Part shown: positions 5,082 to 17,881 of the stretch, one piece after another
How positions within the stretch are numbered: the stretch's first letter is position 1
How the letters are laid out: every line of letters begins with the position of its first letter
Assembly (NCBI RefSeq): GCF_000712135.1
Contig: NZ_JOOE01000001.1
Location: forward strand, 434,001 to 498,000
Reading direction: 5' to 3'
From: Sphingomonas sp. UNC305MFCol5.2
GTDB taxonomy: Bacteria > Pseudomonadota > Alphaproteobacteria > Sphingomonadales > Sphingomonadaceae
DNA: 64,000 nucleotides
Notes under the pieces: generated by a model
What the model saw: only the letters and a program-made list of their open reading frames with translations
Databases searched by the model: none
What the model was told of the DNA's origin: nothing
Made by a program: the position numbers and the translations under genes

Positions 5082-5266
5082 CACCCGGCCACACGCATGA
5101 CCGGCTATAACGCTTTCAGACGAGGTTCTCACGCCTCGGCGCCGGACGGATACCGGCGCACCCGAATCCTACGATTCGCCCGGCACAATGCAAGTCGCGC
5201 AAGCGTCGACTAATCCAAATCGGAGCAAAGTAGCGTCAGCGGACAGATCCCGCGTCGCACAGCTGA

Positions 5267-5292
5267 AGATCAGCATCGCCCGATGCTGATCT
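5267..5292 (-). terminator. Perfect 12-bp hairpin after the MNT-HEPN gene
   Basis: AGATCAGCATCG (5267-5278) is followed after CC by its exact complement (5281-5292). It sits 31 bases beyond the stop of the minus-strand gene at 5324. No clear T-run follows on either strand, so it may be a weak terminator or an mRNA-end structure. The rest of 4911-5323 shows no gene. Confidence 0.45.
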
Positions 5293-5323
5293 CACGAGCC
5301 TTGGAACGCCCGCCGCCTCTCGT

Positions 5324-6250
5324 TCAATTCGCAATCCCGGCTTCCGCCCGCAATTGATCCAGCCGCTCTCGGCAAAGCTGCTCGACGACATCGCGCAACT
5401 GCTTCACCGACACAGCAATCGCGTCCAGATCCTCGGCAGCGATCTCATAGGACGAGGAATAGCGCGCCTCGACATAAGCCCGCTTCAACAGTTCGAACCG
5501 GCGTCGATCCATACGCGTCGCCCGCGGCCATGCGGCAACCAACCGATGATCCTTGTCCTCCGACAGCGAGCGCAGGAACTTGATGTTGTGCGACCGCGGG
5601 AAATAGAGCGTCCATACGAGAAGAAAGCAGGCGTAAGCGGTCTCAGTCGCTTGGTGAAAATTGAACGCGGCGTTACGTACCCAATCGCCGTCCGCATCAC
5701 TTTCGGCTTGTGACACGAGGGCCAGCTTCATCCACCGATCAGTTGCCCGGATCTGGGTATTAAAATACCCCACTGCCATTTCGACCGCATCGGCCGGCTT
5801 CAAAGGCTTCGGCGCGGTCAGCGCGTGGTTCGGCAACTCGTACAGGGCGATGCCATCCCGGGCGATATCGACCCAGAAATACTCGCCCCGCTCGAGCGCC
5901 TGATTCACTTCGTTCAGCGTATGCACGATGATGTTTACCGGCCGCCCAACCGCCGCATCGTGCAGGATCAGATCCTCCGCGACGTACCAGTAGTCCGCTA
6001 TGTCGGTCAGATCCTCATGGCTGACGATCACCAGCAGATCGAAGTCGGACTGATAGCCGTTCTCAGGCTCATCGACCCAGTCCTCGCGGGCATAGGATCC
6101 GAACAGGATTATCTTGAGGATCTTGCCGTTCTTCTTCCACGGCTGGGTGGCCATCGCGATCGCCCGGGAGAACTCCTCGCGCAGCGTCGCGACAACGCGC
6201 ACGAGCTCGTCCTGCTGGGTCGTCGGGAGATGATCGACGTCGTTACGCAT
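5324..6250 (-). CDS. Nucleotidyltransferase-HEPN fusion protein
   Basis: A 308-residue two-domain protein. The N-terminal minimal nucleotidyltransferase has the signature ILFGSYAREDW followed by SDFDLLV, supplying the GS motif and the DxD metal-binding acidic pair. The C-terminal half (from about residue 155) is a helical HEPN domain (AAFNFHQATETAYACFLLVW, then KRAYVEARYSSSYEI). MNT and HEPN proteins usually form toxin-antitoxin pairs in which the MNT domain nucleotidylates the HEPN RNase. Here both are fused, a known proteobacterial arrangement, and no separate partner is adjacent. The start is ATG 6250; the Shine-Dalgarno-like GAGGAAG is rather distant. Substrate unknown. Confidence 0.85.
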   Translation of the reverse strand: MRNDVDHLPTTQQDELVRVVATLREEFSRAIAMATQPWKKNGKILKIILFGSYAREDWVDEPENGYQSDFDLLVIVSHEDLTDIADYWYVAEDLILHDAAVGRPVNIIVHTLNEVNQALERGEYFWVDIARDGIALYELPNHALTAPKPLKPADAVEMAVGYFNTQIRATDRWMKLALVSQAESDADGDWVRNAAFNFHQATETAYACFLLVWTLYFPRSHNIKFLRSLSEDKDHRLVAAWPRATRMDRRRFELLKRAYVEARYSSSYEIAAEDLDAIAVSVKQLRDVVEQLCRERLDQLRAEAGIAN

Positions 6251-6943
6251 CGTTCGCGGCTACTTCCTCATTACCCCATCAAAGTCGTAACAGCGGGCAC
6301 CTGTTTCCACAATGTTCCCCTCGCCGCCGCACCGCAGGCGCGGCCCACAAGGCGCACTCTCGCGAGAGGCCGGCCGTCGCGGCGGCGTGCGCGCGGGCCT
6401 GTGGGCCAGCCGCCGCCGCGCCCCCCGGCCGCGCGAGTGTGCCACGCGGCAAAAAAAAGCTGGCGGACCCTGCCGGCTTCGCAGAAGTCGGCAGAGCACG
6501 CTCCGCTGATCCCCGCGTTCAAACGATCCCCGTGTTCAAGAGATCTCGGCCCTGCGATCGCGATCGTATTGTGAAGTCCACGTGGTCGACCGCCGACACC
6601 TCCGAAGCCTTAATCGGGGTGGAGCTCGGACGGGACTGGCAGAACGCATTTTCGCGACATAACGGTTATGGCGCGAAACGTCCGCTACGCGCCCTAATCC
6701 TCATTCAGCCTCGCCTTCGCGCTTCCCGAAAGCGGACATGCGTTTCAACTGGATCGCGCACGGCAGCCGCTGTCCTCGTGCATCATGCGACAGCATCAGG
6801 AGGGGACTTAGGCGCAGGCTTTTGACGCGTGCTTGTGTGCAATGAATGTGGGAATCAGCGTGTGGTCGGTGTTCTTGGACTTAGGACCCAAGGTGGTGAC
6901 CTTATTGTAAAGGATAGAGGCGGAATGCTCAGCTGCCAACAAT
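6251..6943. other. 693-base non-coding stretch with a GC-rich structured segment
   Basis: No convincing gene in six frames. Bases 6330-6445 are extremely GC-rich and can fold. GGCCCACA (6342-6349) pairs with TGTGGGCC (6400-6407), TCTCGCGAGA (6359-6368) is a perfect palindrome, and the segments around 6352-6364 and 6431-6443 are imperfect complements. A run of eight A follows at about 6451. The remainder (6500-6940) is unremarkable. It could hold a structured RNA or be remnant DNA at the edge of the defence island. Confidence 0.4.
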
Positions 6944-7588
6944 CTAGAGGTAAGAGTCCATCTCGATAATGAGATCGAATATGTCGCCCGGCCAAAGGTC
7001 GGAGTGCAGGATCTGCCGTCCATTGTCAGCGGCAGAGTATGTCAGTCCTTTCCAACTGACGGGCGATGCTCCGGGGTTCTGGAAGTGGATCTTGCCGCCG
7101 TGCGACATAGCGTTGCGAACGGTCCGGCCGAAGTTCCAGACGTGGGGCCATCCGGTGACGTCCGCTCCGAATTTAAGCTCAACCTCCTCTCGACATTGCT
7201 CGAAGAATGCCGTCGCGAGTGCTTGACCGAAGGATTGCAGAAGATGACTAACCGCGCCGAGGCCCAAAACCGCGTCGACGTCCGGCTGGCAGGCGACGAG
7301 GCGACCCATTTCGATGTGTTCGGATCGGGCATTGTGACTGATGGCCGAAACGGTGATGTAGGGCCGCCAAAGCCAGCATGCGGGAGATTGCTTGCAATCG
7401 AAGCGCGCTAGATCCGCGGGGCCATAATTGGTGGACGCCCCGGACACACCAGCTTCCGCAAAGTGAGCGAAGCCAAGTACCGCAACACAATATGCTTCAA
7501 AAACGTCGAAATAACGGGCGCTTTGCGGGATCTTGTCGTCGAAGAAAGGACTTGGCTCGTTACCAGTCTCCTTTGCTCCGATGCTCAT
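6944..7588 (-). CDS. HEPN-like hypothetical protein downstream of nucC
   Basis: A 214-residue helical protein I do not recognise by family. It contains RTVRNAMSHGG near residue 165, an R-N-x3-H arrangement like the catalytic motif of HEPN RNases. A C-terminal segment DLWPGDIFDLIIEMD follows. ATG 7588 is chosen over an upstream TTG (7615); GAAGGTGG lies 11 bases upstream. It is on the same strand as the CBASS operon, 106 bases after the nucC stop, so it could be read through from that operon or be an independent defence gene. No membrane segment or signal peptide is seen. The HEPN assignment rests on one motif plus predicted helicity. Confidence 0.6.
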   Translation of the reverse strand: MSIGAKETGNEPSPFFDDKIPQSARYFDVFEAYCVAVLGFAHFAEAGVSGASTNYGPADLARFDCKQSPACWLWRPYITVSAISHNARSEHIEMGRLVACQPDVDAVLGLGAVSHLLQSFGQALATAFFEQCREEVELKFGADVTGWPHVWNFGRTVRNAMSHGGKIHFQNPGASPVSWKGLTYSAADNGRQILHSDLWPGDIFDLIIEMDSYL

Positions 7589-7694
7589 GCAAATATGGCC
7601 ACCTTCAAGATGCAACGATACCCTCCTTGGGCGGTAGGGAAACCGGACTAAGGTGGCAATCGGTTACTCGCATGCGATGCCGTCCCCGTGGCGG

Positions 7695-8417
7695 TCAGTC
7701 GCTATGTTGCAGCCAGCGCGCGTAGGCGTCGACGTCAATCATCGGGACCGTGCCGCTGAACTGAAGCATGCTGATGAGCTTGAACAGGAACGCGGTCGCC
7801 GGCTTCGCTTCGGGGAAAAAGGTGAAAGCGTCGCCCCCGCGCACGAAATGACCGTGGCTGGCGATGCAGCCGAGATCGAGCACACCGTCACCGACATCTG
7901 CCTTTAGCGCCTTTTCCGCGGCGTCACCGAATGCGGGAGACCAATCGCTGTCGAGGGTAAGCAACCCGCCGAGTATCCGGATCGGCGGCTTGGCGGCGAA
8001 CGTTCCGCCGGCATGCGGGATGGGCAACGAGGTGCGGTGCAGCCGCCGGACCGATGCAGTTTTCTCCTGAGCGTATTTTACATGCGCGGCGTTGGCGACC
8101 TGCTTGGCCTCGAACACAGCGTATACGCTTTCCGCCGGAATGACCTTCTGGCCTTCGACCACAAAGATGAACGGCGTATACTGGCGGTCGAACACAACTA
8201 CGTCGATCTGCTGACTGATATTGTCGAGGCTGTCGATCACGTGCGCGCGGGCGACGCTGTAGCGTTCTGGCAGATAGCGCTCGAGCAACTCGAGCCAGAT
8301 CGCCTCGCTGCCGTCGCCGAGCACGCCCGGGTGACCGATCGTGTCGCGAACCGTCTGCAACCTGCGCTCGATGTCGGCGTGAAGGCTAGCGAGCATCTTG
8401 TTCAAGGACCAAGTCAT
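7695..8417 (-). CDS. nucC: NucC, cyclic-trinucleotide-activated DNase (CBASS effector)
   Basis: Effector endonuclease of CBASS. In characterised homologues, cyclic tri-AMP binding drives trimers into hexamers that shred double-stranded DNA and kill the infected cell. The 240-residue protein has the restriction-enzyme-like PD-(D/E)xK site: D72 in QQIDVVVFD and E103-x-K105 in VYAVFEAKQ. These positions are almost identical to the D73/E104/K106 I recall for E. coli NucC. Other family-typical stretches are ASVRRLHRTSLPIPHAGGTF and ATAFLFKLISMLQFSGTVP. The start is ATG 8417 with GAGG upstream; longer frames enter the upstream gene. It lies 13 bases after the cyclase stop as the last core gene of the operon. 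Confidence 0.95.
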   Translation of the reverse strand: MTWSLNKMLASLHADIERRLQTVRDTIGHPGVLGDGSEAIWLELLERYLPERYSVARAHVIDSLDNISQQIDVVVFDRQYTPFIFVVEGQKVIPAESVYAVFEAKQVANAAHVKYAQEKTASVRRLHRTSLPIPHAGGTFAAKPPIRILGGLLTLDSDWSPAFGDAAEKALKADVGDGVLDLGCIASHGHFVRGGDAFTFFPEAKPATAFLFKLISMLQFSGTVPMIDVDAYARWLQHSD

Positions 8418-8430
8418 CGGGTCTTTTCCT

Positions 8431-9330
8431 CTACGACAGCGGGAATTTGGGGCCGAAGAGCGCACGCCACGCCTTGAGCGCGTCCCCGCCACGACCTTCG
8501 CGTGCATGGCGGATCGCTTGCGACGCATCGCGGCTCGCCGTCGCGAGGAGAGTGCGCGCCCGGGCGCGGCGGTTCGCGTCCATGCAGTCGCTGACCGGCG
8601 GTCCGAGTCCAGCCGGGTCGGGCCACACATCGTCGATGCGATCGGCCAGCGTCTGGAAGAATGCCTGCAGCTCATAGGCAAAGCTGCCGCCCCATGGCGC
8701 GTGCAGGCATTCGAGCGCCATGACCTCGATCAGGAACGACGGTTTGACCGCCTTCTCGCGGTGCTTCGGGTTGTTATTCCAATATTTGACCATGCGCACG
8801 ATACCCTTCCATTCGGACGAGTGCGCTTGGTGCGCAGCCGTGGCTTTGGCGGCATGCGTTTCGGGATTGGTGAGGATCCACGTCCCTTTGTCGCGGTCGG
8901 GGATCTCGTAGTCGTCATCGCACGCGAATGCGGGTACGACATCGACGCTGACGATACGATAGTCGGTGTTGTCCTCGGCATCGGCGACCACTCCGAAGTC
9001 GACGTTGACGCTGCGCGTCTGCTTGCGCACGGCGGCCGTGCCGTATTTCTCGACAAGGGCGTCGTAGAAGGCGTCGATCACGGTGTCCGGCGATTTGTCG
9101 CGGTAGTGACGCTCCGCTTTGCCAAGCTGCAAGAAGATATCGATGTCCTTGAGCGGCTTCGTCTTGGTGTGGCGCTTGTAGGATCCGGTCAGGAAGCTGC
9201 GCTCAATCGAGAATTTGGCAGCCAGATAGTCGCGCACCTCATTCTGCCGCACAGACGCATTGGCCTGCTCGCGATCGTTCAGCTCTAGCCGACTCTTGAA
9301 CTTCCGAAACGCATCGTCGATGGTCAGCAT
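8431..9330 (-). CDS. CBASS CD-NTase (cyclic oligonucleotide synthase)
   Basis: Synthesises the second messenger that activates NucC. The 299-residue protein has the polymerase-beta-type active site [20 protein letters not shown]: the GSY helix at 49-51, metal-binding D62 and D64, and a third acidic residue D130 in VSVDVVPAF. Pairing with NucC, HORMA and TRIP13 predicts a cyclic tri-adenylate product, as in characterised CdnC/CdnD systems; the exact clade is not assigned here. ATG 9330 overlaps the HORMA stop by one base (TGATG) and has GGAGG at a good distance, so it is preferred to GTG 9333. HORMA binding is expected to switch the enzyme on. Confidence 0.94.
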
Positions 9331-9827
9331 CACGGTTTCCTCCAGTAAGCGGCGTTAGCGCCCAGCCCATTGTGCTCGATCGTCGAGCCTAGGCTCTGCC
9401 GCACGAAACCTTCGGTGCTGCGCGCGGTCGCGGAGCCCCAGCCTTCGACGGGCGGGGCGCCCTGCTTGCGGCGCAGGGTCAGGTCGTATTTCGCGTCGGT
9501 CGGCGCGACGCCGGCCTTGCGAATATGGAACCGCAGCTGCTCGGTGTCGGTGTAAAACCCGCCGTCGCCGGTGTAGCCGTAAACCACCTCGATCTCCCAC
9601 CGGATGATCAGCGCGTTGGTGGCGGGGTGATAGATGTCGAGCATCACCTTGGTGAGGTGGCCCGACGACAGCCAGGTGCTGATCGCACGGTGGTTGGACG
9701 ACCAGTCGGCGGCGAACGACGCCGGGTCGAGCCCTGCCATACGCACGATATCCTTCAGGCTCTTGAGGATGTTGTCGGTTACATAGGTGACCGAGTGCGT
9801 ATAGGTGTTGACGGTAACGCTGGTCAT
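9330..9827 (-). CDS. cap7: Cap7, bacterial HORMA-domain protein
   Basis: Signalling subunit of type III CBASS. In characterised systems a closed HORMA bound to a peptide ligand activates the CD-NTase, and TRIP13 unfolds it again. The 165 residues match the bacterial HORMA family from start to end. The N-terminus is [20 protein letters not shown], the middle carries [19 protein letters not shown] then [16 protein letters not shown], and the C-terminal safety-belt region ends [20 protein letters not shown] 9827 overlaps the stop of the preceding gene by one base. What peptide closes the HORMA is unknown; the adjacent Cap8-like protein is one candidate. Confidence 0.92.
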
Positions 9828-10318
9828 CAGCTGAACAACCCCTTGAGATCAATGTCCATCACCCCGCTCGCGGCGCCTGCGGACTGGTCCATCGATGCGC
9901 TCTCAGAAGTGTCGGTGGCGCCCTTGTCGCTGGCGTCGCGCGCGGTGATTCGGCTCGACAGCCCGGCGAGCGCTGCCGACACCCAGCTGAGGTCATCGCC
10001 CAGGCAGGGCAGGGAGACGCGCCAGTCGCCCTCCACCGCGTTGTGCGGCAGCCGCGATTCATCCGCGGTGTCGGCGTCGAGCGCATCATCGTCGTAGACG
10101 CAATAGATGCGGGTGCGCGGCCCGCTGCACGTCGAGACGATCGCCGAGTGCTGCGGGGCCATGTCCGCGATGATCGACGAGGCGACGCCGCTCACCGAGA
10201 GGAGTTCGTCGCGCGCTGCGCTCTGCCCAGTGCCGGCGAGGAGATCGACTATAACGCGCCAGCTGTCGTCGGCGCTGCGCGTCGGGACGCTCGTGACGGT
10301 GCGGCGATAGACGGTCAT
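9827..10318 (-). CDS. cap8: Cap8-like partner protein of the CBASS HORMA
   Basis: A 163-residue protein encoded between TRIP13 and the HORMA gene and overlapping both (ATGA with cap6, TGATG with cap7). It resembles the second HORMA-like protein (Cap8) found in some type III CBASS operons. Typical stretches are [33 protein letters not shown] and [16 protein letters not shown]. The last ~40 residues are low-complexity ([19 protein letters not shown]) and end in a hydrophobic patch, [11 protein letters not shown]. That layout would suit a flexible tail carrying a closure peptide for Cap7, but this is inference. The Cap8 name rests on position and remembered family resemblance. Confidence 0.72.
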
Positions 10319-11217
10319 GCGACCCCCGTGCGCGCAGTGCGCTCGCTGACCGACTGGCGCAGCGCGAGAATCAGATCCGCGATGGTCACACTGGCGGGGT
10401 CGAGCGCGACCGCGCGATTGCTGGCCAGCGCGTTCGCCACCGCCTTGCGGATCGCGCGGGCATCAAGTCCGTTGCCCGCGGCAGCGCAGGTGGCGAGTCC
10501 AAGTTCGTCGGCAAGCCCGCCTATCGCCGGATAGGCGGCGCCGAGCGCCCTTAGGCACCGTTTGAGGATTTCGAGCCGCGCTGGAGCATCGGGCAGCGGT
10601 ACGGTCATCACCAAGTCGCAGCGCGACGTGAAGGCGCTGTCGAGCGCTTCGGGGAAGTTGCTGGTGGCGACGAACAGCAGGTGGGGATAGCGCTCAGCGA
10701 GGGCATCGAGCTGGATGAGCACCGCATCGGTCGCGCGGTGGATGTCGATCGGGTTGGCCTCAAGGCTCATTCGCGACCGGTCGGCGGCGAGCGTCTCGAC
10801 CTCGTCGAGCAGCACGATCGTCGGCCCGGTCGCTGCGGCTTCCGCGATCGTCTTCGAGAACAAGTCTGTGACCGCGCGCTGCGTCTTGCCCATACCCGAA
10901 CTAGTCAGCGAGTGCGGTTCGACTTCCAGCAAGGTGAAACGCTGGCGGGGGAAGGCGAGCGCGACACGGTGGGCGAGACCACGTGCGAGCGAGGTTTTGC
11001 CGGTTCCCGGTGCGCCCGTCATCAGGATGACGCCGTGGAGCGGGAGTTCGGCCCGCGAAACCCGCGGGCGGACCGTGTAGTTGAGAACTGCATGGGCAAG
11101 CAGCCGCTCGCGCACGTGCTCGGGGACGACAATCGCGTCCCAATACTCCCCGAGCCTGTTGTCGGGCAGCGCACGGCGCACGTGAATGCCTCGCGGCAAG
11201 TCGTCGTAGTCAGCCAT
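10315..11217 (-). CDS. cap6: Cap6, TRIP13/Pch2-like AAA+ ATPase
   Basis: Hexameric remodeller that disassembles HORMA complexes and so keeps CBASS off until infection. The 300 residues hold Walker A GAPGTGKTS (68-76), Walker B TIVLLDEVETL with D138/E139, sensor-1 N187 in VATSNFPE, and an arginine-finger region DSAFTSRCD. ATG 11217 has GAGG seven bases upstream; a GTG at 11229 is possible but lies inside the putative operator. It is the first gene of the operon. A promoter with a dyad overlapping its -10 element lies just upstream. Confidence 0.93.
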   Translation of the reverse strand: MADYDDLPRGIHVRRALPDNRLGEYWDAIVVPEHVRERLLAHAVLNYTVRPRVSRAELPLHGVILMTGAPGTGKTSLARGLAHRVALAFPRQRFTLLEVEPHSLTSSGMGKTQRAVTDLFSKTIAEAAATGPTIVLLDEVETLAADRSRMSLEANPIDIHRATDAVLIQLDALAERYPHLLFVATSNFPEALDSAFTSRCDLVMTVPLPDAPARLEILKRCLRALGAAYPAIGGLADELGLATCAAAGNGLDARAIRKAVANALASNRAVALDPASVTIADLILALRQSVSERTARTGVA

Positions 11218-11229
11218 CAGACACCTCAC

Positions 11230-11271
11230 TTAACATATAAGTTATGTACAGGGGGGTCTGAGCAGTTTCAA
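11230..11271 (-). promoter_or_regulatory. CBASS promoter with overlapping AT-rich dyad
   Basis: On the minus strand TTGAAA (11271-11266) and TACATA (11248-11243) are 17 bases apart, a sigma-70-like promoter about 25 bases from the cap6 start. The sequence CTTAACATATAAGTTATG (11229-11246) carries TAAC-N6-GTTA symmetry and covers the -10 region. It matches the dyad before the RelE/HTH operon (14436-14454) at 13 of 18 positions when that one is read on the minus strand. A repressor binding here would block CBASS transcription. Confidence 0.55.
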
Positions 11272-11290
11272 GATCCGCGTGCAGAAAAAT

Positions 11291-11306
11291 TTAGTTATAT
11301 ATTAAG
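11291..11306. promoter_or_regulatory. Second AT-rich dyad-like site upstream of the CBASS promoter
   Basis: TTAGTTATATATTAAG resembles the sites at 11229-11246 and 14436-14454 (TTA/TAA arms around a TATA core) and is an AT island in GC-rich DNA. It lies 20 bases upstream of the -35 element, so it could be an auxiliary operator. Confidence 0.4.
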
Positions 11307-11361
11307 TTTTGCGTTTTCAGAGCGTTGCGGCGGAATGAGCTTGAGCTACGGGATGCCGGCC

Positions 11362-11389
11362 AAAAAAAACCCGGCGATCGCTCGCCGGG
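11362..11389 (-). terminator. Rho-independent terminator between the ATPase and CBASS operons
   Basis: On the minus strand CCCGGCGA-GCGA-TCGCCGGG (arms 11382-11389 and 11370-11377) is followed at once by eight T (11369-11362). This is a textbook terminator for transcription arriving from the ATPase gene ending at 11590. It isolates the CBASS operon, whose promoter lies further on. Confidence 0.88.
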
Positions 11390-11427
11390 CTGGTCGTTTC
11401 CGAAAAGGTGCGACCTCGAAGCGTCGC

Positions 11428-11457
11428 TTAGTCTTCAGCTCCGGTTTCGTGTACCAT
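11428..11457 (-). CDS. Possible 9-residue micro-ORF (MVHETGAED)
   Basis: On the minus strand an AAGGAG site lies seven bases before ATG 11457. The frame MVHETGAED ends with TAA at 11428, and the strong terminator begins 38 bases later. It occupies the otherwise empty 11390-11589 interval after the ATPase gene. The good ribosome site and nearby terminator suggest a small expressed unit (peptide or regulatory RNA), but nine codons are too few to prove coding. The rest of this 370-base gap contains no other gene. Confidence 0.25.
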   Translation of the reverse strand: MVHETGAED

Positions 11458-11589
11458 TCTCGGTCTCCTTCGTGGCCACGGATAAGATGGAATCCCTAAG
11501 CATTGGTTAGCTTGGAAGTTCCGCTTGACGGCGACTTCGCATGGAATCACCGCCCTCGCAATATGAATCTAGGACGCGCTGGCCGCGTT

Positions 11590-13455
11590 TCAATTTGTTG
11601 ATGTCGCCTTAGCGATGAATGGCGGCATTAGGGCGTCACCGCGTTCGAGCGTCGCGCGCATCTCATTCAGGTCGGCCTCGAAATCCTCTTCCGACATGTT
11701 GAGATATCGCCAGCAGCTAAAAACGGGTCCGCTTGACGCTACGAGGCGTCGCTCCGCCGTAACCAGTTCGGCTGCCGCGTGGCTCGAGCGGCCAAGGACA
11801 CTGTGCACTAGCGCGAAGCACTGATGGGCGTTGGCATCGGTTTCGCTGCCGCTTACGATCAAGGCGTCGACCGCTCCGAACAGTTCGACCGAGGGCGAGC
11901 CGCTGCTCCCCCATGCCGCCATCGCACGATTAAATGTAGCGGCCAGTCTGCCTTCGCGACTTGTGCTGGCAGTTTCGAGCCTCTCGGCCATTGCCAGTGC
12001 TTCTGCAAACCGCTGCGAGCCAATCAGCGCCAGCTGGGCGGTATTGAGAAAGGCCGAGCGATCTTTTCGACGCAGGTCTAGATCATCGGCGTATTCGAGA
12101 CACTTGTCTGCAACGAGCGACAGTTTCTCACGATCGGCCATCAGGATCTGGGCGAGGAGCTGCTTCACCTTGATCGGCGTGCTAGCCGATTGGAACAACT
12201 CGTCTGCCAGCGCGATCGATTCAGGTTTCAGATCCGACATCAGCACCTGCATCGCGGGACCGAACTCGAAGATGGTCCCGTCGTGCGACTTGAGCACCGA
12301 GATCATATCTTCGCGACCTTCCTCGCGACGGCCGGTGTTGAAACGTGACACTCCTCGCGACATGAACGCCCGAGCGGTTGCCGCTCCATGCTCGATGGCG
12401 ATCGTACGTGCGGCGATGTCGCGTTCAAATTCGCCCGCGAAATGAAACATCTCGCCGGCCGCCATAGCAATGTCCGGATCGTTCGAATGCCGTCGCAGAA
12501 TCTCGGATGCATCTTTGACGATCGTCAGCCGGTACTTGTCGCGGCCTGCGCCGCGCGCGCGCCTGTAACGTTCAGGCATCTTTGTCAGCGCAAGCAACGC
12601 ACCGTCGCGGTCATCAAAGTTGCGCGAAGCGATTGCTGTGAGGAGATCGCTGTATTCCTTGGCAAGCAATGCACCCGGCTTGCCGATCGCGATGATCGGC
12701 TTGATCAACAACTCCAAACTTGTCCGATGGTGAATCGTCGTCGCCGGCTGATCGATGTCGTCATTGTAGCCAAGTTTCAGGCTCGCCTTGTCGAGTAGCT
12801 CCTTGAGGATACCGTCCTCGTCATATTCATAGGGCACGTTCGAAGGACAGAAATGAAGGTGGATCGGCTCGGCTCGCTCGCTCGATTCCTCCCGAATACC
12901 CTGGACGATCGGTACTAGCCCGTCGACGTTCTGATCATTAGGGAGATACATGATCGCGACGGCGTCGGGCAGATGGCGTGTGCAGATGCCGCCGACATCA
13001 GTGTGGCCGGTGCGACTGTCGATGAGGACGTAGTCGAACCCGTGATCCTCGAAATCCGCCCACTGCTGTCGAACATCCTCGAGGAGAAGATAGCCCTCCT
13101 CTTCGTCGTACAGCCGCTCCCAGTCGATCGCGTTCAGTCGCTCGGTGTAGTTGGCGGCGCCACTGTCGCCCGCTGGCATCACCCATATCGACTGGCCTCG
13201 GTGTACGCAGGGCACGACGAAATCCGCGATGTCCGGCGCGGTCGAGGTCGCACGATATTGTTCAATGAGATCGACAATCCCACGCTGACCTCTGGCTTCC
13301 GCAAACGCATCGAAGCTCGGCAATCCGGGCGCCTCGAGATCGAAATCGACCAGCAGCACGCGCTTGCCCGCCTGGGCGAAGCCGAACGCGACATTGACGA
13401 GCGCCATCGTCCGGCCGACGCCGCCCTTGTAGGAATAGAAGGTGACGACGTGCAT
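11590..13455 (-). CDS. KGGVGR-type ParA/MinD-like ATPase with long helical-repeat tail
   Basis: A 621-residue protein. The N-terminus is a deviant-Walker SIMIBI ATPase: P-loop YKGGVGRTMA at 9-18 and DFDLEAPG at 37-44. VLIDSRTGHTD supplies the switch-type motif. From about residue 290 the chain is helical and TPR-like (FHFAGEFERDIAARTIAIEH, then GVSRFNTGRREEGREDMISV). KGGVGR ATPases occur in bacterial conflict systems as signalling hubs; a defence role here is inference from neighbours. ATG 13455 is four bases after the stop of the XRE regulator, so the two are co-translated. It ends at a shared locus boundary marked by the terminator at 11362-11389. It is not a plasmid ParA: no ParB gene or parS-like repeats were seen. 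Confidence 0.85.
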   Translation of the reverse strand: MHVVTFYSYKGGVGRTMALVNVAFGFAQAGKRVLLVDFDLEAPGLPSFDAFAEARGQRGIVDLIEQYRATSTAPDIADFVVPCVHRGQSIWVMPAGDSGAANYTERLNAIDWERLYDEEEGYLLLEDVRQQWADFEDHGFDYVLIDSRTGHTDVGGICTRHLPDAVAIMYLPNDQNVDGLVPIVQGIREESSERAEPIHLHFCPSNVPYEYDEDGILKELLDKASLKLGYNDDIDQPATTIHHRTSLELLIKPIIAIGKPGALLAKEYSDLLTAIASRNFDDRDGALLALTKMPERYRRARGAGRDKYRLTIVKDASEILRRHSNDPDIAMAAGEMFHFAGEFERDIAARTIAIEHGAATARAFMSRGVSRFNTGRREEGREDMISVLKSHDGTIFEFGPAMQVLMSDLKPESIALADELFQSASTPIKVKQLLAQILMADREKLSLVADKCLEYADDLDLRRKDRSAFLNTAQLALIGSQRFAEALAMAERLETASTSREGRLAATFNRAMAAWGSSGSPSVELFGAVDALIVSGSETDANAHQCFALVHSVLGRSSHAAAELVTAERRLVASSGPVFSCWRYLNMSEEDFEADLNEMRATLERGDALMPPFIAKATSTN

Positions 13456-13459
13456 CGGG

Positions 13460-13948
13460 TTATGCCGCGTGCTGGGTGAGTAGCGGCGGCCGAGCCGCGC
13501 AGCCGCGGCGCACCACGAACTTGGCCTTGGCTGCAAGCTGCACCGCCGAGGCCGGACGATGGAAGCGATACCGCGCCTGCTCCGGGCCGAGCTCGACTGG
13601 TTCGGTCGGTGTGTCGGTCGGCACATCGCAGGTGGCATCCGCGACCGACGTGGCGTTTCTGGCCGGCGCTTCGACAAGCTGGCATCGCGCACCAAGGACG
13701 TAATAAATTTTGGCGAGTGTTCTGAGCGTGAGATTGTGCGCTCCGTCGCCGAACATCTGGCTGACGCGGGCTTGGGATACGCCGAGCCTCTCTGCGAGAT
13801 CGATCTGCTTGAGGCCGCGCTCGCGCAGCGCGCGCGCGATGCCGGTCTGCACATCCACAATTAGGTCTTCCTGCGCCTTGATGACCTCATAGCTCTCTTC
13901 GGCCTGGGCCGTACGCCCACGGGTCTTTCGCGCAGTATCCTGCACCAT
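13460..13948 (-). CDS. XRE/HigA-like transcriptional regulator
   Basis: A 162-residue DNA-binding protein with a Cro/CI helix-turn-helix at about residues 38-90 (GLKQIDLAERLGVSQARVSQ, then MFGDGAHNLTLRTLAKIYY). A proline/threonine-rich linker and a basic C-terminal tail (KAKFVVRRGCAARPPLL) follow. ATG 13948 with GGAGA eight bases upstream is preferred to ATG 13963. It follows a RelE/HigB-like gene, the usual HigBA order, and precedes the ATPase by four bases. As the antitoxin-type regulator it probably represses its own operon through the dyad at 14436-14454. The matching dyads before cap6 suggest it may also control CBASS. Confidence 0.82.
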   Translation of the reverse strand: MVQDTARKTRGRTAQAEESYEVIKAQEDLIVDVQTGIARALRERGLKQIDLAERLGVSQARVSQMFGDGAHNLTLRTLAKIYYVLGARCQLVEAPARNATSVADATCDVPTDTPTEPVELGPEQARYRFHRPASAVQLAAKAKFVVRRGCAARPPLLTQHAA

Positions 13949-14005
13949 CGTTGCTGTCTCCATTCGTTCGGATCCAAAGGCAGGAGCCCGGATCGGAAAG
14001 ATCGT

Positions 14006-14413
14006 TCAAACTATCTGGCTCAGGCGGATCGCTTCCTTGCCGGCGCTGTCGAGCAACGTGCGATCGGCCTTCGCCTGCTTCTTCGCGGCGTCCATGCCGG
14101 TTACGAAGAACGACGCCGTCTTCGCGTGCAGGGCGCCGAAGCCGAACAGCCGGACGGCCCCGGCCTTGAATTCCTCCAACCGCACCTGTCGGCGCTCGGC
14201 TTTGAAATGCTCAAGGAACTTGAACATCTTCTCGTTCATGTCGATTGGCCCATGATCGCAATAATGCTGCATCAGGCTCTCCAGCCGGGCTCGTGCGCGA
14301 AGATCGACCAAGGTCGGGTCTATAAGGACAGCCCATTCGCGCTCACGTAGGTAGATCGCGCGTCTAACCTGTATCCCGCCGGTAAACCGCTGCACATAGC
14401 CCTGCGGCGCCAT
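14006..14413 (-). CDS. RelE/HigB-like toxin-family protein (putative)
   Basis: A 135-residue basic protein, first gene of the HTH-ATPase cassette. Its C-terminal half (VRLFGFGALHAKTASFFVTG, then MDAAKKQAKADRTLLDS) resembles the Gp49/HigB and RelE pattern of a strand pair followed by a K/R-rich helix. The first 60 residues (FTGGIQVRRAIYLRERE) are less familiar and make it longer than the typical ~100-residue HigB. If active it would be a ribosome-dependent mRNA interferase neutralised by the downstream XRE protein. ATG 14413 has GAAGG upstream. The family call is moderate; position supports it. Confidence 0.58.
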   Translation of the reverse strand: MAPQGYVQRFTGGIQVRRAIYLREREWAVLIDPTLVDLRARARLESLMQHYCDHGPIDMNEKMFKFLEHFKAERRQVRLEEFKAGAVRLFGFGALHAKTASFFVTGMDAAKKQAKADRTLLDSAGKEAIRLSQIV

Positions 14414-14435
14414 CGATTCGCCTTCGCTTCATTGG

Positions 14436-14467
14436 AGTTAATATATACGTTAAGGCGCCGTGGTCAA
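14436..14467 (-). promoter_or_regulatory. Promoter and dyad operator of the RelE/HTH/ATPase cassette
   Basis: On the minus strand TTGACC (14467-14462) and TATATT (14445-14440) are 16 bases apart, a strong sigma-70-like promoter 27 bases before the 14413 start. The -10 lies inside the dyad CTTAACGTATATATTAAC (14454-14437), the expected place for autorepression by the XRE protein. Upstream, 14468-14769 (about 300 bases) shows no gene or other signal. Confidence 0.6.
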
Positions 14468-14769: not shown

Positions 14770-15393
14770 TCACTCGCTCGACACGCGTAACGCGTCGAGA
14801 ACCTCGGACGTGATCGTTCCGGTGACGGGCAAGTCCCGCGCCTTCTGGAACTTACGAATGCTGGCACGCATCCCGGGCCCGACAATCCCGTCGATCGCCC
14901 CGTCATAATATCCTTGGGCGAGCAACCCAATCTGCACGCGCTTCACGATTGCCTTGAACCGTTCCGTCCGGCCGCTCAGCGCGGGGAGTGCATCGGACCG
15001 CGGCGGAGTGGCCTCCCCGGGCTGTGCGCTACGCAGCGGAACGTAACGCGTAGGCGGTGGTGCCGGCGTCGGTGAAGGGGCAGGCGTCGTATAGGCCGGC
15101 GACGAATAGCCTCCATCATAGCCACCGGTGCTCGAGCGGTGGCTGGTATGGCTCATGTGGCTATAGTGACCGCCGCCGCCCGAGCGGTGACTGCTGTGGC
15201 TGCGATGACTGCTGTGGCTGCGATGCTGGGCAAGGGTCACCATGTGCCCCTGCTTGAAGATGTCGAACAGGGTCTGGCGATCCGGGTCGCCGTTGCCGCT
15301 CGACAGCAGTTGGACCGTGGTCGCCGACAAATCCTCATGGACGCCGAAGCCCGCGGCAAAGAGGCTCGGGATCAGGAAGCGGGCTCGCCTCAT
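14770..15393 (-). CDS. hxsA: HxsA, His-Xaa-Ser repeat protein
   Basis: Presumed substrate of the two radical SAM enzymes upstream. The 207 residues begin MRRARFLIPSLFAAGFG. A His-Xaa-Ser repeat block lies around residues 50-85 (HRSHSSHRSHSSHRS, then HYSHMSHTSHRS). A proline/threonine-rich linker follows, then a C-terminal peptidoglycan-binding_1 domain (GYYDGAIDGIVGPGMRASIR, then KFQKARDLPVTG). This is the layout of the HXS system's HxsA. ATG 15393 overlaps the hxsC stop (ATGA). The repeats are probably modified post-translationally and then displayed at the cell wall; neither chemistry nor function is known to me. Confidence 0.92.
   Translation of the reverse strand: MRRARFLIPSLFAAGFGVHEDLSATTVQLLSSGNGDPDRQTLFDIFKQGHMVTLAQHRSHSSHRSHSSHRSGGGGHYSHMSHTSHRSSTGGYDGGYSSPAYTTPAPSPTPAPPPTRYVPLRSAQPGEATPPRSDALPALSGRTERFKAIVKRVQIGLLAQGYYDGAIDGIVGPGMRASIRKFQKARDLPVTGTITSEVLDALRVSSE
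15188..15223. repeat. hxsA: 18-bp tandem duplication inside hxsA
   Basis: TGACTGCTGTGGCTGCGA occurs twice head to tail (15188-15205 and 15206-15223) and encodes two His-Xaa-Ser pairs. Exact DNA identity suggests recent expansion of the modified repeat. Confidence 0.85.
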
Positions 15394-16472
15394 AGTGGAT
15401 GAACTCCCTCGGTTGCGCTGTCGGGATGCCACTCGAAAAAGCCCGTGCAGGCGTCCCGCTCGGTACAGCCGTCGCACGCGGGAACATATTTGCGCTTCCA
15501 GTCGGAGATCGAGGCGGCGGCGAGGTAGCGATAGGGCCGCGGCACCGTACAGCGGGGAAAATTGAACAGGCGCGCGGGCACGCCGTGTAGCTTTGCATGA
15601 TCGAGCGCGGCCGCCACCGGTGCGAAGTCTTGACTGTGCGGGACATAGAGCTTTGCCCAGCGATTGCGCGCGAAACCGACATGTTCAAGTTGCATGATCG
15701 ACCAGGCATGGATGAAACGCAGCCGGGTCGCGATATAGCGCGCCAATGCCGGTAGGGCAGCGAGGTTGTCGCTGAGCAGCACCGTACGCAATTCCACCCG
15801 CGCCCCGCTCAGCAAAAGATGCGCGAGGCTCTCTTCCAGTCGCGCGAAAGCGCCGGCCTTGCCGACGATCGCGTCATGGAGCGCGGCCGCGCGGGCATAG
15901 AGCGGGATACCCCAAAGGACCTGGGCGTAGACGGGATCGCGCAGTCGTTCGATATCCTCTTGCGCGAAGTGCTGGCCGTTGGTGAGGACATGGAAAGCGA
16001 GATCGGGGCGCTGTGCGAGCACTCGCTCGATCATCCCGAGCAGTTCATCCTTGTAGAGCGTCGGCTCGCCGCCCGAGATGCCGATGACGATGTCCGGTTC
16101 GGCGAGCAGGCACGCCTGCTCGAGCAAGGCGAAGCGGTCCACATGGGTCTTCTTTGGGGGCTGCGAGCACATGACGCAGAGTTGGTCGCAACGCTCGGTG
16201 ACGAGCAGCGTGTTGTGCGGCGACCCCGCGCGCAGCAGCCGCTCGATCCGGCCGCCATCGGGCTGGACAAGCACCACGTCGCCATCGAGATCGGCGGCAG
16301 AAAGCCCGTCGATCGCGAGGAGCCCGTGCGCTCCGGCAAAGGTTACGCCCGCGTCATCCTCTCCGCACAACAGGGAATCGTCATTTCCGGAAACGTCGCA
16401 GCGCCCTGCCCGCAACCGCGTGACGAACGGCTCCGACGCCTCGGCCACCGCAGGAAGCGTAAGCTCGATCAT
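15390..16472 (-). CDS. hxsC: HxsC, radical SAM/SPASM-type enzyme of the HXS system
   Basis: A 360-residue radical S-adenosylmethionine enzyme. The cluster-binding CxxxCxxC is C95-x3-C99-x2-C102 in ERCDQLCVMCSQPPK. A GGEPTLY motif (SAM binding) follows near residue 140, and a C-terminal auxiliary-cluster region CDGCTERDACTGFFEW ends the protein. It should act with HxsB on the His-Xaa-Ser repeats of HxsA. ATG 16472 overlaps the hxsB stop by four bases; the longer frame to 16676 lies within hxsB. All four genes overlap and form one operon. Confidence 0.92.
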   Translation of the reverse strand: MIELTLPAVAEASEPFVTRLRAGRCDVSGNDDSLLCGEDDAGVTFAGAHGLLAIDGLSAADLDGDVVLVQPDGGRIERLLRAGSPHNTLLVTERCDQLCVMCSQPPKKTHVDRFALLEQACLLAEPDIVIGISGGEPTLYKDELLGMIERVLAQRPDLAFHVLTNGQHFAQEDIERLRDPVYAQVLWGIPLYARAAALHDAIVGKAGAFARLEESLAHLLLSGARVELRTVLLSDNLAALPALARYIATRLRFIHAWSIMQLEHVGFARNRWAKLYVPHSQDFAPVAAALDHAKLHGVPARLFNFPRCTVPRPYRYLAAASISDWKRKYVPACDGCTERDACTGFFEWHPDSATEGVHPL

Positions 16473-17881
16473 GCGTGCACCGTGCCAAGAGCATCCGGCG
16501 TGCCGTCGAGGCGCAGCCAGCGGCTGAGCGAATAGCGCACCGCGGGATCGTCCTCGTAGATCAGCCCGAACAGGAAATCGAAGAGGTGGAGGTGCCGGCG
16601 GCAGAATTCGGTTTCCAGCCGCGGCTTGTCGATCCGCCCATAGCGCGCGAGATCGTCGACGAGGTCGCGGCCGCAAAAGGGCTGGTAGGCGCAGCGCTGA
16701 CAGGCCGGGTCGTCGAAATTGGCGTTGTGGCGGTTGAGCAGGTCCCGCCGCGCGTTCTGCCAGCCCGAATGCACGTCGCCGATCGCGAGGTCGATCACGC
16801 CCGAGCGCGACAGCATCCGGGCCTCGTCGGATGGATAGATCACACCGTCATGGTCGATGACGACATAGTCATGCCCCAGCGGATTGGGATTACGCAGGTC
16901 GACATGCCTGTCCGCGCCCGGCTGGAAGATCCGGCGCAGGCAAATGCTGGTGTAGGTCTCCTCGAGCACCCGGCTGCGATCCGCCCAGTTCCGGGCGATG
17001 AGCGCGCGCACGAAGCGCTCATGATAGGCGCGCCAGCCGCCGGACTGCTCCCGCGAAGCGCTGTGCCGCTTGCGGGCGAAGCCCTGATAGTTGATTGGGC
17101 GCAAGAAGATGCTGTCGAGGCCGCGCGCGGCGTAGCTGTCGATCAGCGCATCGATGTCGGGCGGCGCCAACGGATCGATCGTCGGCAGCGCAGAGATCTT
17201 CCCGGGGCCATAGCGTGCGAGCACCAGATCGAGATTGTCGAGGAATTGCCCTGTGCTGGCCGCGGTGCCGGTGCGATGGCGCTGGTGCGTGAACGCGTCG
17301 CCATCGAGCGAGGTGCTGATAAAGAGTTCCGGGTCGTCGAATAGCGCCAGGATATCGTCGTCGAGCACCTGTAGATTGGTGCAGACGACGAACTGGCGCT
17401 CGGCGAAGCGCCGGCAGCGATCGATCACCGCCCGCAACAGATCCACGCGCAGGGTCGGCTCGCCGCCCTGGAACTCGATCTTAATCCGCTCGCCCGGCAG
17501 GCCGTCGAGCAATGCGAGCACCGCATCGAGCGTCGCCTCGCTCCAGTCGAACCCGGGCTGATGGATGCCGGCGCGCGACACCTGACAATAGCTGCAGCTG
17601 AGATTGCAGCGCAACGTCGGCACGAGGATCAGGTAATCGAGCGGTCCGGCATGGGCAGCGCGTTCGGCAAGACCATAGAGATAGGCGGCATGTCCAAGTG
17701 CGTCCGCCGCGTCGACCAGATGCCCGTGGTCGCCAAGGAAGGTGCGATCCTGTGACGTGAGCTGGTCTCCGGCGAGCCGCGTCATGAATGGCGCGTCGGC
17801 GCGAAAGAAGTGGCCGATATCGTGGACGCAGAGGACACCGCCCTCCCCCACTGCGCGCATCCTGAGCGGAACGAACGTCAT
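16469..17881 (-). CDS. hxsB: HxsB, radical SAM/SPASM enzyme of the HXS system
   Basis: A 470-residue radical SAM peptide-modifying enzyme. The cluster motif is C92-x3-C96-x2-C99 (RCNLSCSYCQ), with SAM-site EFQGGEPTLR near 140. The SPASM region is near 390-405 (PACQRCAYQPFCGRD), with a further C-rich end (EFCRRHLHLFDFLFG). The paired HxsB/HxsC enzymes suggest that two clusters of chemistry act on HxsA. ATG 17881 overlaps the hxsD stop (ATGA). Length and motifs agree with the HxsB family. Confidence 0.92.
   Translation of the reverse strand: MTFVPLRMRAVGEGGVLCVHDIGHFFRADAPFMTRLAGDQLTSQDRTFLGDHGHLVDAADALGHAAYLYGLAERAAHAGPLDYLILVPTLRCNLSCSYCQVSRAGIHQPGFDWSEATLDAVLALLDGLPGERIKIEFQGGEPTLRVDLLRAVIDRCRRFAERQFVVCTNLQVLDDDILALFDDPELFISTSLDGDAFTHQRHRTGTAASTGQFLDNLDLVLARYGPGKISALPTIDPLAPPDIDALIDSYAARGLDSIFLRPINYQGFARKRHSASREQSGGWRAYHERFVRALIARNWADRSRVLEETYTSICLRRIFQPGADRHVDLRNPNPLGHDYVVIDHDGVIYPSDEARMLSRSGVIDLAIGDVHSGWQNARRDLLNRHNANFDDPACQRCAYQPFCGRDLVDDLARYGRIDKPRLETEFCRRHLHLFDFLFGLIYEDDPAVRYSLSRWLRLDGTPDALGTVHA

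Follow-up and report, generated by a model that had tools for sequence, protein, structure and literature searches.

The 64,000-nt stretch of Sphingomonas sp. UNC305MFCol5.2 analyzed here (the window; GCF_000712135.1, NZ_JOOE01000001.1, positions 434,001–498,000, forward strand) carries on its minus strand, in this order, a toxin/XRE/ATPase three-gene cassette, a strong terminator and the operon of a cyclic oligonucleotide-based antiphage signaling system (CBASS). Candidate operators of one family were located before the cassette (S2) and in the CBASS promoter region (S3 and S1). From these sites and their distribution among other genomes, the XRE protein, an antitoxin-like regulator, is predicted to repress CBASS as well as its own operon, both of which would be released if it were lost; we place the probability of this reading at about 0.74. 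A preliminary description of the same DNA had proposed the XRE protein as a toxin-antitoxin (TA)-type autoregulator and CBASS switch, a proposal favored at the level of sequence by the operator family, by co-occurrence of the site with the XRE gene and by absence of the site at cassette-free CBASS loci.

Candidate operators and promoters in the window

The sites, the cassette promoter and the cassette genes are as follows (window coordinates; TAC, toxin-antitoxin-chaperone).

14437–14454, minus strand: S2, candidate operator that overlaps the −10 of the toxin/XRE/ATPase cassette (matrix score 26.0, window rank 1)
11289–11306, minus strand: S3, upstream candidate operator of the CBASS promoter region, covering TATAAC (score 21.9, rank 2)
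11229–11246, plus strand: S1, downstream candidate operator of CBASS, abutting the ribosome-binding site (score 20.1, rank 3)
14440–14467, minus strand: predicted sigma-70-type cassette promoter, TTGACC-16-TATATT (10 of 12 consensus bases)
14006–14413, minus strand: putative toxin, first gene in TAC-like operons (homologues at the same position in other genomes)
13460–13948, minus strand: XRE (HTH_3) antitoxin-like regulator, proposed repressor at S1, S2 and S3 (Pfam HTH_3, E = 2.7e-6; PADLOC PDC-M64)
11590–13455, minus strand: KGGVGR-variant AAA ATPase, occupying the place of the relatives' SecB-like gene (NCBIfam NF047398, E = 7.2e-50)

Direct comparison of the S1 and S2 18-mers gave identity at 13 of 18 bases, as first described, and GC content is about 0.54–0.56 around the sites and 0.66 in the window, in keeping with the earlier picture of AT islands in GC-rich DNA. 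The third AT-rich site, formerly placed at 11291, is a genuine member of the family and outscores S1; it corresponds to S3 at 11289–11306 (minus-strand sequence CTTAATATATAACTAAAT), 60 bp from S1 center to center. S1 and S2 had both been said to cover a predicted −10, which held for S2 (within TTGACC-16-TATATT); at S1 only weak candidates are present. S3 covers the −10 candidate TATAAC (9 of 12 consensus bases, 15-nt spacer).

Consensus searches made from the sites themselves were set aside as circular, and in one of them the reversed control was nearly equal (5 versus 6 matches). Because such a consensus cannot settle the question of chance, sites of relatives were used instead: a symmetric weight matrix was built from six palindromes before related cassettes in six other genomes, with the window sites excluded. 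Scored over all positions of the window, this matrix returned S2 (26.0), S3 (21.9) and S1 (20.1), with the next-best position at 12.7. The same three positions remained on top when any single training site was dropped, when training was restricted to three sites whose palindromes had been identified independently of the window, and when the matrix was rebuilt from four sites of loci that had played no part in training. In 1,490,304 bases of control DNA from 80 CBASS loci, one position scored 20.1 or more. Dinucleotide shuffling of positions 11218–11589 produced at least one site scoring 20.1 or more in 18 of 20,000 sequences; none of the 20,000 contained two. With a permissive palindrome search, 89 places were found in the genome, compared with 261 for the reversed control.

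Association of the site with the XRE cassette

Among 396 genomes of the order, matches to the XRE protein were found in the source genome and six others, and matches to the toxin (E ≤ 1e-4) in the source genome and three others. In all six other genomes the palindrome [G/C]TTAA-N8-TTAA[G/C] or a variant (GTTCAC...GTGAAC, GTTTAG...CTTAAC) lies directly before the first cassette gene, so that the XRE relatives sit behind an operator-type site; at two of the six training loci the toxin was assigned to the first gene from its position, no match being significant. Strong cassette-side sites were also present outside the training set, at L112/L133 (24.4) and on the Sphingobium plasmid locus L123 (24.5). 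At L114 an operator-like site scoring 28.0 (L114:324–341, GTTAACATTTATATTAAC) precedes a small open reading frame (ORF) and a distant XRE relative; this locus cannot be clearly assigned to the TAC-like cassettes, and its neighboring ORFs have no demonstrated toxin homology.

Six cassettes (L129–L134) were classed as solitary as far as checked, a near upstream neighbor of each and some others having been compared with PADLOC and Pfam. Where a match was obtained, it was to a housekeeping gene, a transposase or a chemotaxis gene; no family was assigned to the near neighbors of L130, L132 and L133. Exactly one strong site, located before the toxin, was found in five of the six (24.2–28.8; next best ≤14.5).

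The site did not follow the ATPase. At seven KGGVGR ATPase loci without an XRE homologue (L119–L122, L124–L126), no strong site was found before the ATPase operon. Separately, a site scoring 22.9 was seen at the 3′ end of the KGGVGR ATPase gene of L122. In three of four plasmid records, an MqsA-family antitoxin gene is annotated ahead of the KGGVGR ATPase (L120, L121 and L122 are on Rhizobium/Massilia plasmids), and the window pairs this ATPase family with an antitoxin family other than MqsA. Searches of plasmids gave no match with the toxin, one record with the XRE protein and three with the SecB-like protein; two of the latter three, L135 and L136, contained no strong site. Four scans of viral contigs yielded no confirmed relative.

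Nor did the site follow CBASS. No cassette gene (E ≤ 1e-3) was present within the DNA examined at 80 CBASS relatives, some of whose flanks end at contig ends, and 0 of the 65 distinct upstream regions of these cassette-free loci reached a score of 15. A CapH-like XRE gene, identified by similarity, lies upstream of CBASS in 14 of the 80. Of the ORFs upstream of CBASS relatives, 78 gave 27 HTH_3, 18 IrrE peptidase and 6 WYL matches; these ORFs were hand-picked from 128 extracted, so the counts describe the selection only. By gene content, the upstream position of CBASS is a regulator slot, often occupied by controllers of kinds already known.

By its distribution, the site tracks the XRE gene rather than the ATPase or CBASS. 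The earlier view of the sites as one operator family, with the XRE protein as cognate regulator, is supported by phylogenetic footprinting, by absence of the site from cassette-free CBASS relatives and by immune-side copies at two other immune operons (described below). As in type II TA autoregulation, S2 lies over the cassette's own −10 and the site is conserved before relatives' cassettes, where binding is predicted.

The related cassettes are toxin-XRE-SecB-like operons. Identity of the window proteins to those of the TAC-like relatives is 21–36% for the first gene and 24–38% for the XRE gene, and the toxin-antitoxin pair is homologous to the pair of these operons. When a profile of seven relatives' third genes was compared with PDB sequences, the M. 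tuberculosis TAC chaperone Rv1957 came out first (E = 2.6e-4); in Pfam, no SecB match to the seven was found. The third gene of the window encodes the KGGVGR ATPase and departs from a TAC module with its SecB-like chaperone; no SecB-like match was found in the window genome, in a search made without a positive control. The relatives look like TAC modules, and in the window the KGGVGR ATPase appears to replace the chaperone. The toxin had been labeled RelE-like, a label that found no support in sequence searches: neither a RelE match nor any other was obtained in Pfam, PADLOC, NCBIfam or a PDB sequence search. A single-sequence structure model (predicted local distance difference test score, 41) was too poor to judge the fold.

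Cassettes beside other immune operons

Two further cassettes from the window's genus stand divergent to an immune operon and carry a site on each side. At L127 the neighboring operon combines an E2-E1-JAB gene with a gene of metallo-beta-lactamase type, matched by PADLOC as LmuA (E = 1.4e-11) and by no Pfam family; the toxin-side site scores 23.0 and the immune-side site 18.6. At L142, which was met after the matrix had been fixed, the neighbor is an operon of the pyrimidine cyclase system for antiphage resistance (Pycsar) encoding PycC (E = 2.9e-161), an E2 protein and PycTIR (E = 1.9e-67). The two best positions of the 19 kb at this locus both lie in the shared intergenic region, at 21.6 on the Pycsar side and 12.3 on the toxin side, the latter copy having perfect 7-bp arms and a GC-rich center. 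The Pycsar operon (5107–8383) and, beyond the cassette, an LmuA-like metallo-beta-lactamase gene (10217–11401) flank the cassette of L142, which thus sits among defense genes. In the window, L127 and L142, then, a regulator gene stands beside an immune operon, and binding and repression there are predicted.

Two more immune-linked cassettes were examined. The cassette of L123 lies opposite metallohydrolase and Mov34 genes; a palindrome near the metallohydrolase start scored 9.1 and was not counted. That of L128 is in tandem, downstream of a metallo-beta-lactamase-like/E2-E1-JAB/patatin run, and has its own site (23.8). In the genome concerned (G192), L143:343–4833 together with L128:4879–10346 gives this run, with a divergent WYL gene, upstream of the tandem cassette.

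With the window included, three of the five immune-linked cassettes have immune-side sites (window, L127, L142), which makes three of four if the count is limited to cassettes occupying the regulator slot; none of the six solitary cassettes has one. Among plasmid relatives of the L127 immune operon, one of three examined has helix-turn-helix (HTH) and ImmA/IrrE genes divergent to the operon. TA-type, WYL and CapH/CapP-type regulators seem, in these small numbers, to alternate in one slot. In an XRE tree the window sequence forms a long branch without a firm place and the immune-linked sequences need two changes; a single origin of the latter is neither shown nor ruled out by the tree.

The KKQ motif is kept in the toxins of the window and L128–L134 (8 of 8) and is absent from those of the three divergent immune-linked cassettes (L127:6558–6968, L123:3519–3929 and L142:8555–8986). 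It is as if these modules had turned into dedicated controllers, their regulators kept and their toxins degenerate.

Proposed regulation, alternatives and known controllers

The terminator and the CBASS genes that the XRE protein would control are the following.

11368–11391, minus strand: intrinsic terminator between cassette and CBASS (10-pair stem, then T run)
10315–11217, minus strand: cap6, CBASS TRIP13-like ATPase, start taken as ATG 11217 (PADLOC TRIP13, E = 2.4e-137)
9827–10318, minus strand: CBASS HORMA protein 1 (PADLOC HORMA, E = 1e-60)
9330–9827, minus strand: CBASS HORMA protein 2 (Pfam bacHORMA_2, E = 5.5e-76)
8431–9333, minus strand: CBASS CD-NTase (NCBIfam CBASS_cyclase_b, E = 9.3e-101)
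7695–8441, minus strand: NucC-type effector nuclease (PADLOC Effector (NucC), E = 1.9e-103)

The CBASS components CD-NTase, HORMA and TRIP13 and a NucC effector are all present (Pfam, PADLOC, NCBIfam); with HORMA and TRIP13, this is what we take to be a Type III system. The predicted terminator shields CBASS from cassette read-through.

We infer binding, direction of regulation and trigger as follows. In a cassette of toxin-antitoxin(-chaperone) type, the XRE protein would serve as DNA-binding antitoxin, and its dimer would bind the 18-bp imperfect palindrome [G/C]TTAA-N8-TTAA[G/C]. At S2, on the cassette's own −10, binding would give autorepression; at S3 and S1, in the CBASS promoter region, it would keep the TRIP13-HORMA-HORMA-CD-NTase-NucC operon off or low. 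A fall in the antitoxin pool would then free the toxin and open both promoters together. The trigger, by analogy to CmdTAC, would be lost stabilization by the third gene product (SecB-like in the relatives, the KGGVGR ATPase here), and if the ATPase is the stabilizer, toxin release and CBASS transcription would become coupled on phage infection. A wider and more tentative extension, for which we see perhaps some prospect, is that TAC-type modules serve as infection-sensing transcription switches, in which phage material titrates the stabilizer, the antitoxin is lost, the toxin is freed and the promoter of a neighboring CBASS, Pycsar or ubiquitin-like operon opens.

Several observations weigh against repression of CBASS by the XRE protein. 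What predicts repression is operator position. The −10 candidates at S1 are weak (CATAAC, 19-nt spacer, 9 of 12; TACATA, 17-nt spacer, 8 of 12), and inspection of the promoter region found no convincing −10/−35 pair belonging to S1. Column-permuted matrices, which keep AT-richness and were the harshest control, recreated the two-plus-one placement in 14 of 2000 cases, and at least one unrelated genomic site (C2:172380) scored 20.3 among the 50 of the 89 palindrome places that were scored. The solitary cassette of L134 has a weak site only (7.3, with another position in the locus at 9.3). Immune-side sites are absent from two of the five immune-linked cassettes: L123 lacks a full-strength site on its metallohydrolase/Mov34 side, and no site was found at the immune promoter of L128 (best in L143, 9.9), where the divergent WYL gene occupies the slot. 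Because 0 of the 80 CBASS relatives has a cassette, the CBASS case comes from one genome.

Three alternatives were weighed. The XRE protein may bind S1 and S3 as an activator or fine-tuner, or S2 may be the only functional site and S1 and S3 relics of a duplicated promoter; this is unlikely, and it survives best. Its appeal lies in the position of S1 between the best −10 candidates and the ribosome-binding site, which is odd for a classical operator, and in the 60-bp spacing, which could also serve looping, but S3 and S1 score 20–22, a level reached once in 1.49 Mb of control DNA, and two cassettes at other immune operons have immune-side sites as well. It is less probable again that S1 and S3 are bound by some other HTH protein of this genome, unrelated to the cassette, and resemble S2 through accidental AT-richness. 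The matrix from other genomes' cassettes still selects S1 and S3, two sites arose in none of the shuffles, none of the 65 CBASS upstream regions has a site, and the window genome gave no second XRE match at E ≤ 0.001; these results stand against the AT-rich, −10-like character of the DNA and the 14 of 2000 permuted matrices, on which that explanation would draw. That the cassette is an independent defense module lying beside CBASS by chance, its shared sites being of no regulatory consequence, would fit the single genome in which the two occur together, the pairing of the KGGVGR ATPase elsewhere with other HTH proteins and without CBASS, and the missing immune-side site near the immune operon of L128, but is very improbable given extra immune-side sites in three genomes, at three different immune operons, and at none of six solitary cassettes.

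Repression by the XRE antitoxin was compared with known systems, taken as presented in the accessible parts of the cited reports. TAC modules (HigBA1-Rv1957 of M. tuberculosis; CmdTAC of E. coli, PMC11618068) resemble the relatives in their putative toxin, HTH antitoxin and Rv1957-like third gene; unlike in these modules, the third gene of the window is a KGGVGR ATPase and the antitoxin-type operator is also present on a separate immune operon. In CmdTAC the antitoxin is degraded once a phage capsid protein has taken its chaperone away (PMC11618068), and a role of a TAC chaperone as transcriptional co-repressor has been raised as an idea (PMC5105189). The named controllers of adjacent immune pathways, CapW, CapH+CapP and CapK+CapS, are all tied to DNA damage (PMC13373217). 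CapH+CapP, CapW/BrxR and CapK+CapS lie beside CBASS, Pycsar or ubiquitin-like operons and repress their neighbor (PMC13373217); the cassette shares this adjacency, whereas its regulator is a TA-type antitoxin within its own operon and with its own operator. It differs further in that the cassette genes gave no match to an ImmA/IrrE peptidase (Pfam, NCBIfam), as in CapH+CapP, or to WYL (Pfam), as in CapW/BrxR, and include no kinase, as in CapK+CapS.

Other regulators are alike in part. CdxB of Caulobacter is alike in kind, being an XRE-family repressor that directly represses lypABC, an immune-like lysis operon, and one further target; it is presented as a stand-alone regulator and is not described, in the accessible part of the report, as the antitoxin of a TA operon beside its target (PMC13236601). 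HigA2 of M. tuberculosis is a HigA-type antitoxin acting beyond its own operon, whose targets, in contrast, are dispersed rather than an adjacent immune operon (PMC11205783). RptR, from a restriction-modification/DarTG2 defense island, is likewise a small repressor with several operators at a defense promoter, but it is a dedicated regulator gene and not an antitoxin (PMC12255303). In the titles and abstract openings of papers listed by searches of the open-access literature, no TA antitoxin was found described as the regulator of a neighboring CBASS or Pycsar operon.

The distribution of the sites suggests that some TA modules can act as shared switches of bacterial immunity. If so, a TA module would be a further kind of adjacent-immunity controller with another input (antitoxin stability, possibly phage proteins), and TA modules would gain a role as shared on/off switches of other immune systems. 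A search rule for antitoxin targets follows, namely the antitoxin's own operator before a neighboring gene.

Between the ATPase stop codon and the terminator, a 9-codon frame (MVHETGAED; 11428–11457, minus strand) with a good AAGGAG ribosome-binding site was noted, which may be due to chance. Upstream of the cassette, the window contains a His-Xaa-Ser (hxs) peptide-modification cluster (14770–17881) consisting of HxsA (14770–15477, E = 2.5e-41), an HxsB-type radical SAM protein (16469–17881; 364 bits, slightly below the NCBIfam cut-off of 370) and, between these two, a second radical-SAM-like ORF judged by eye.

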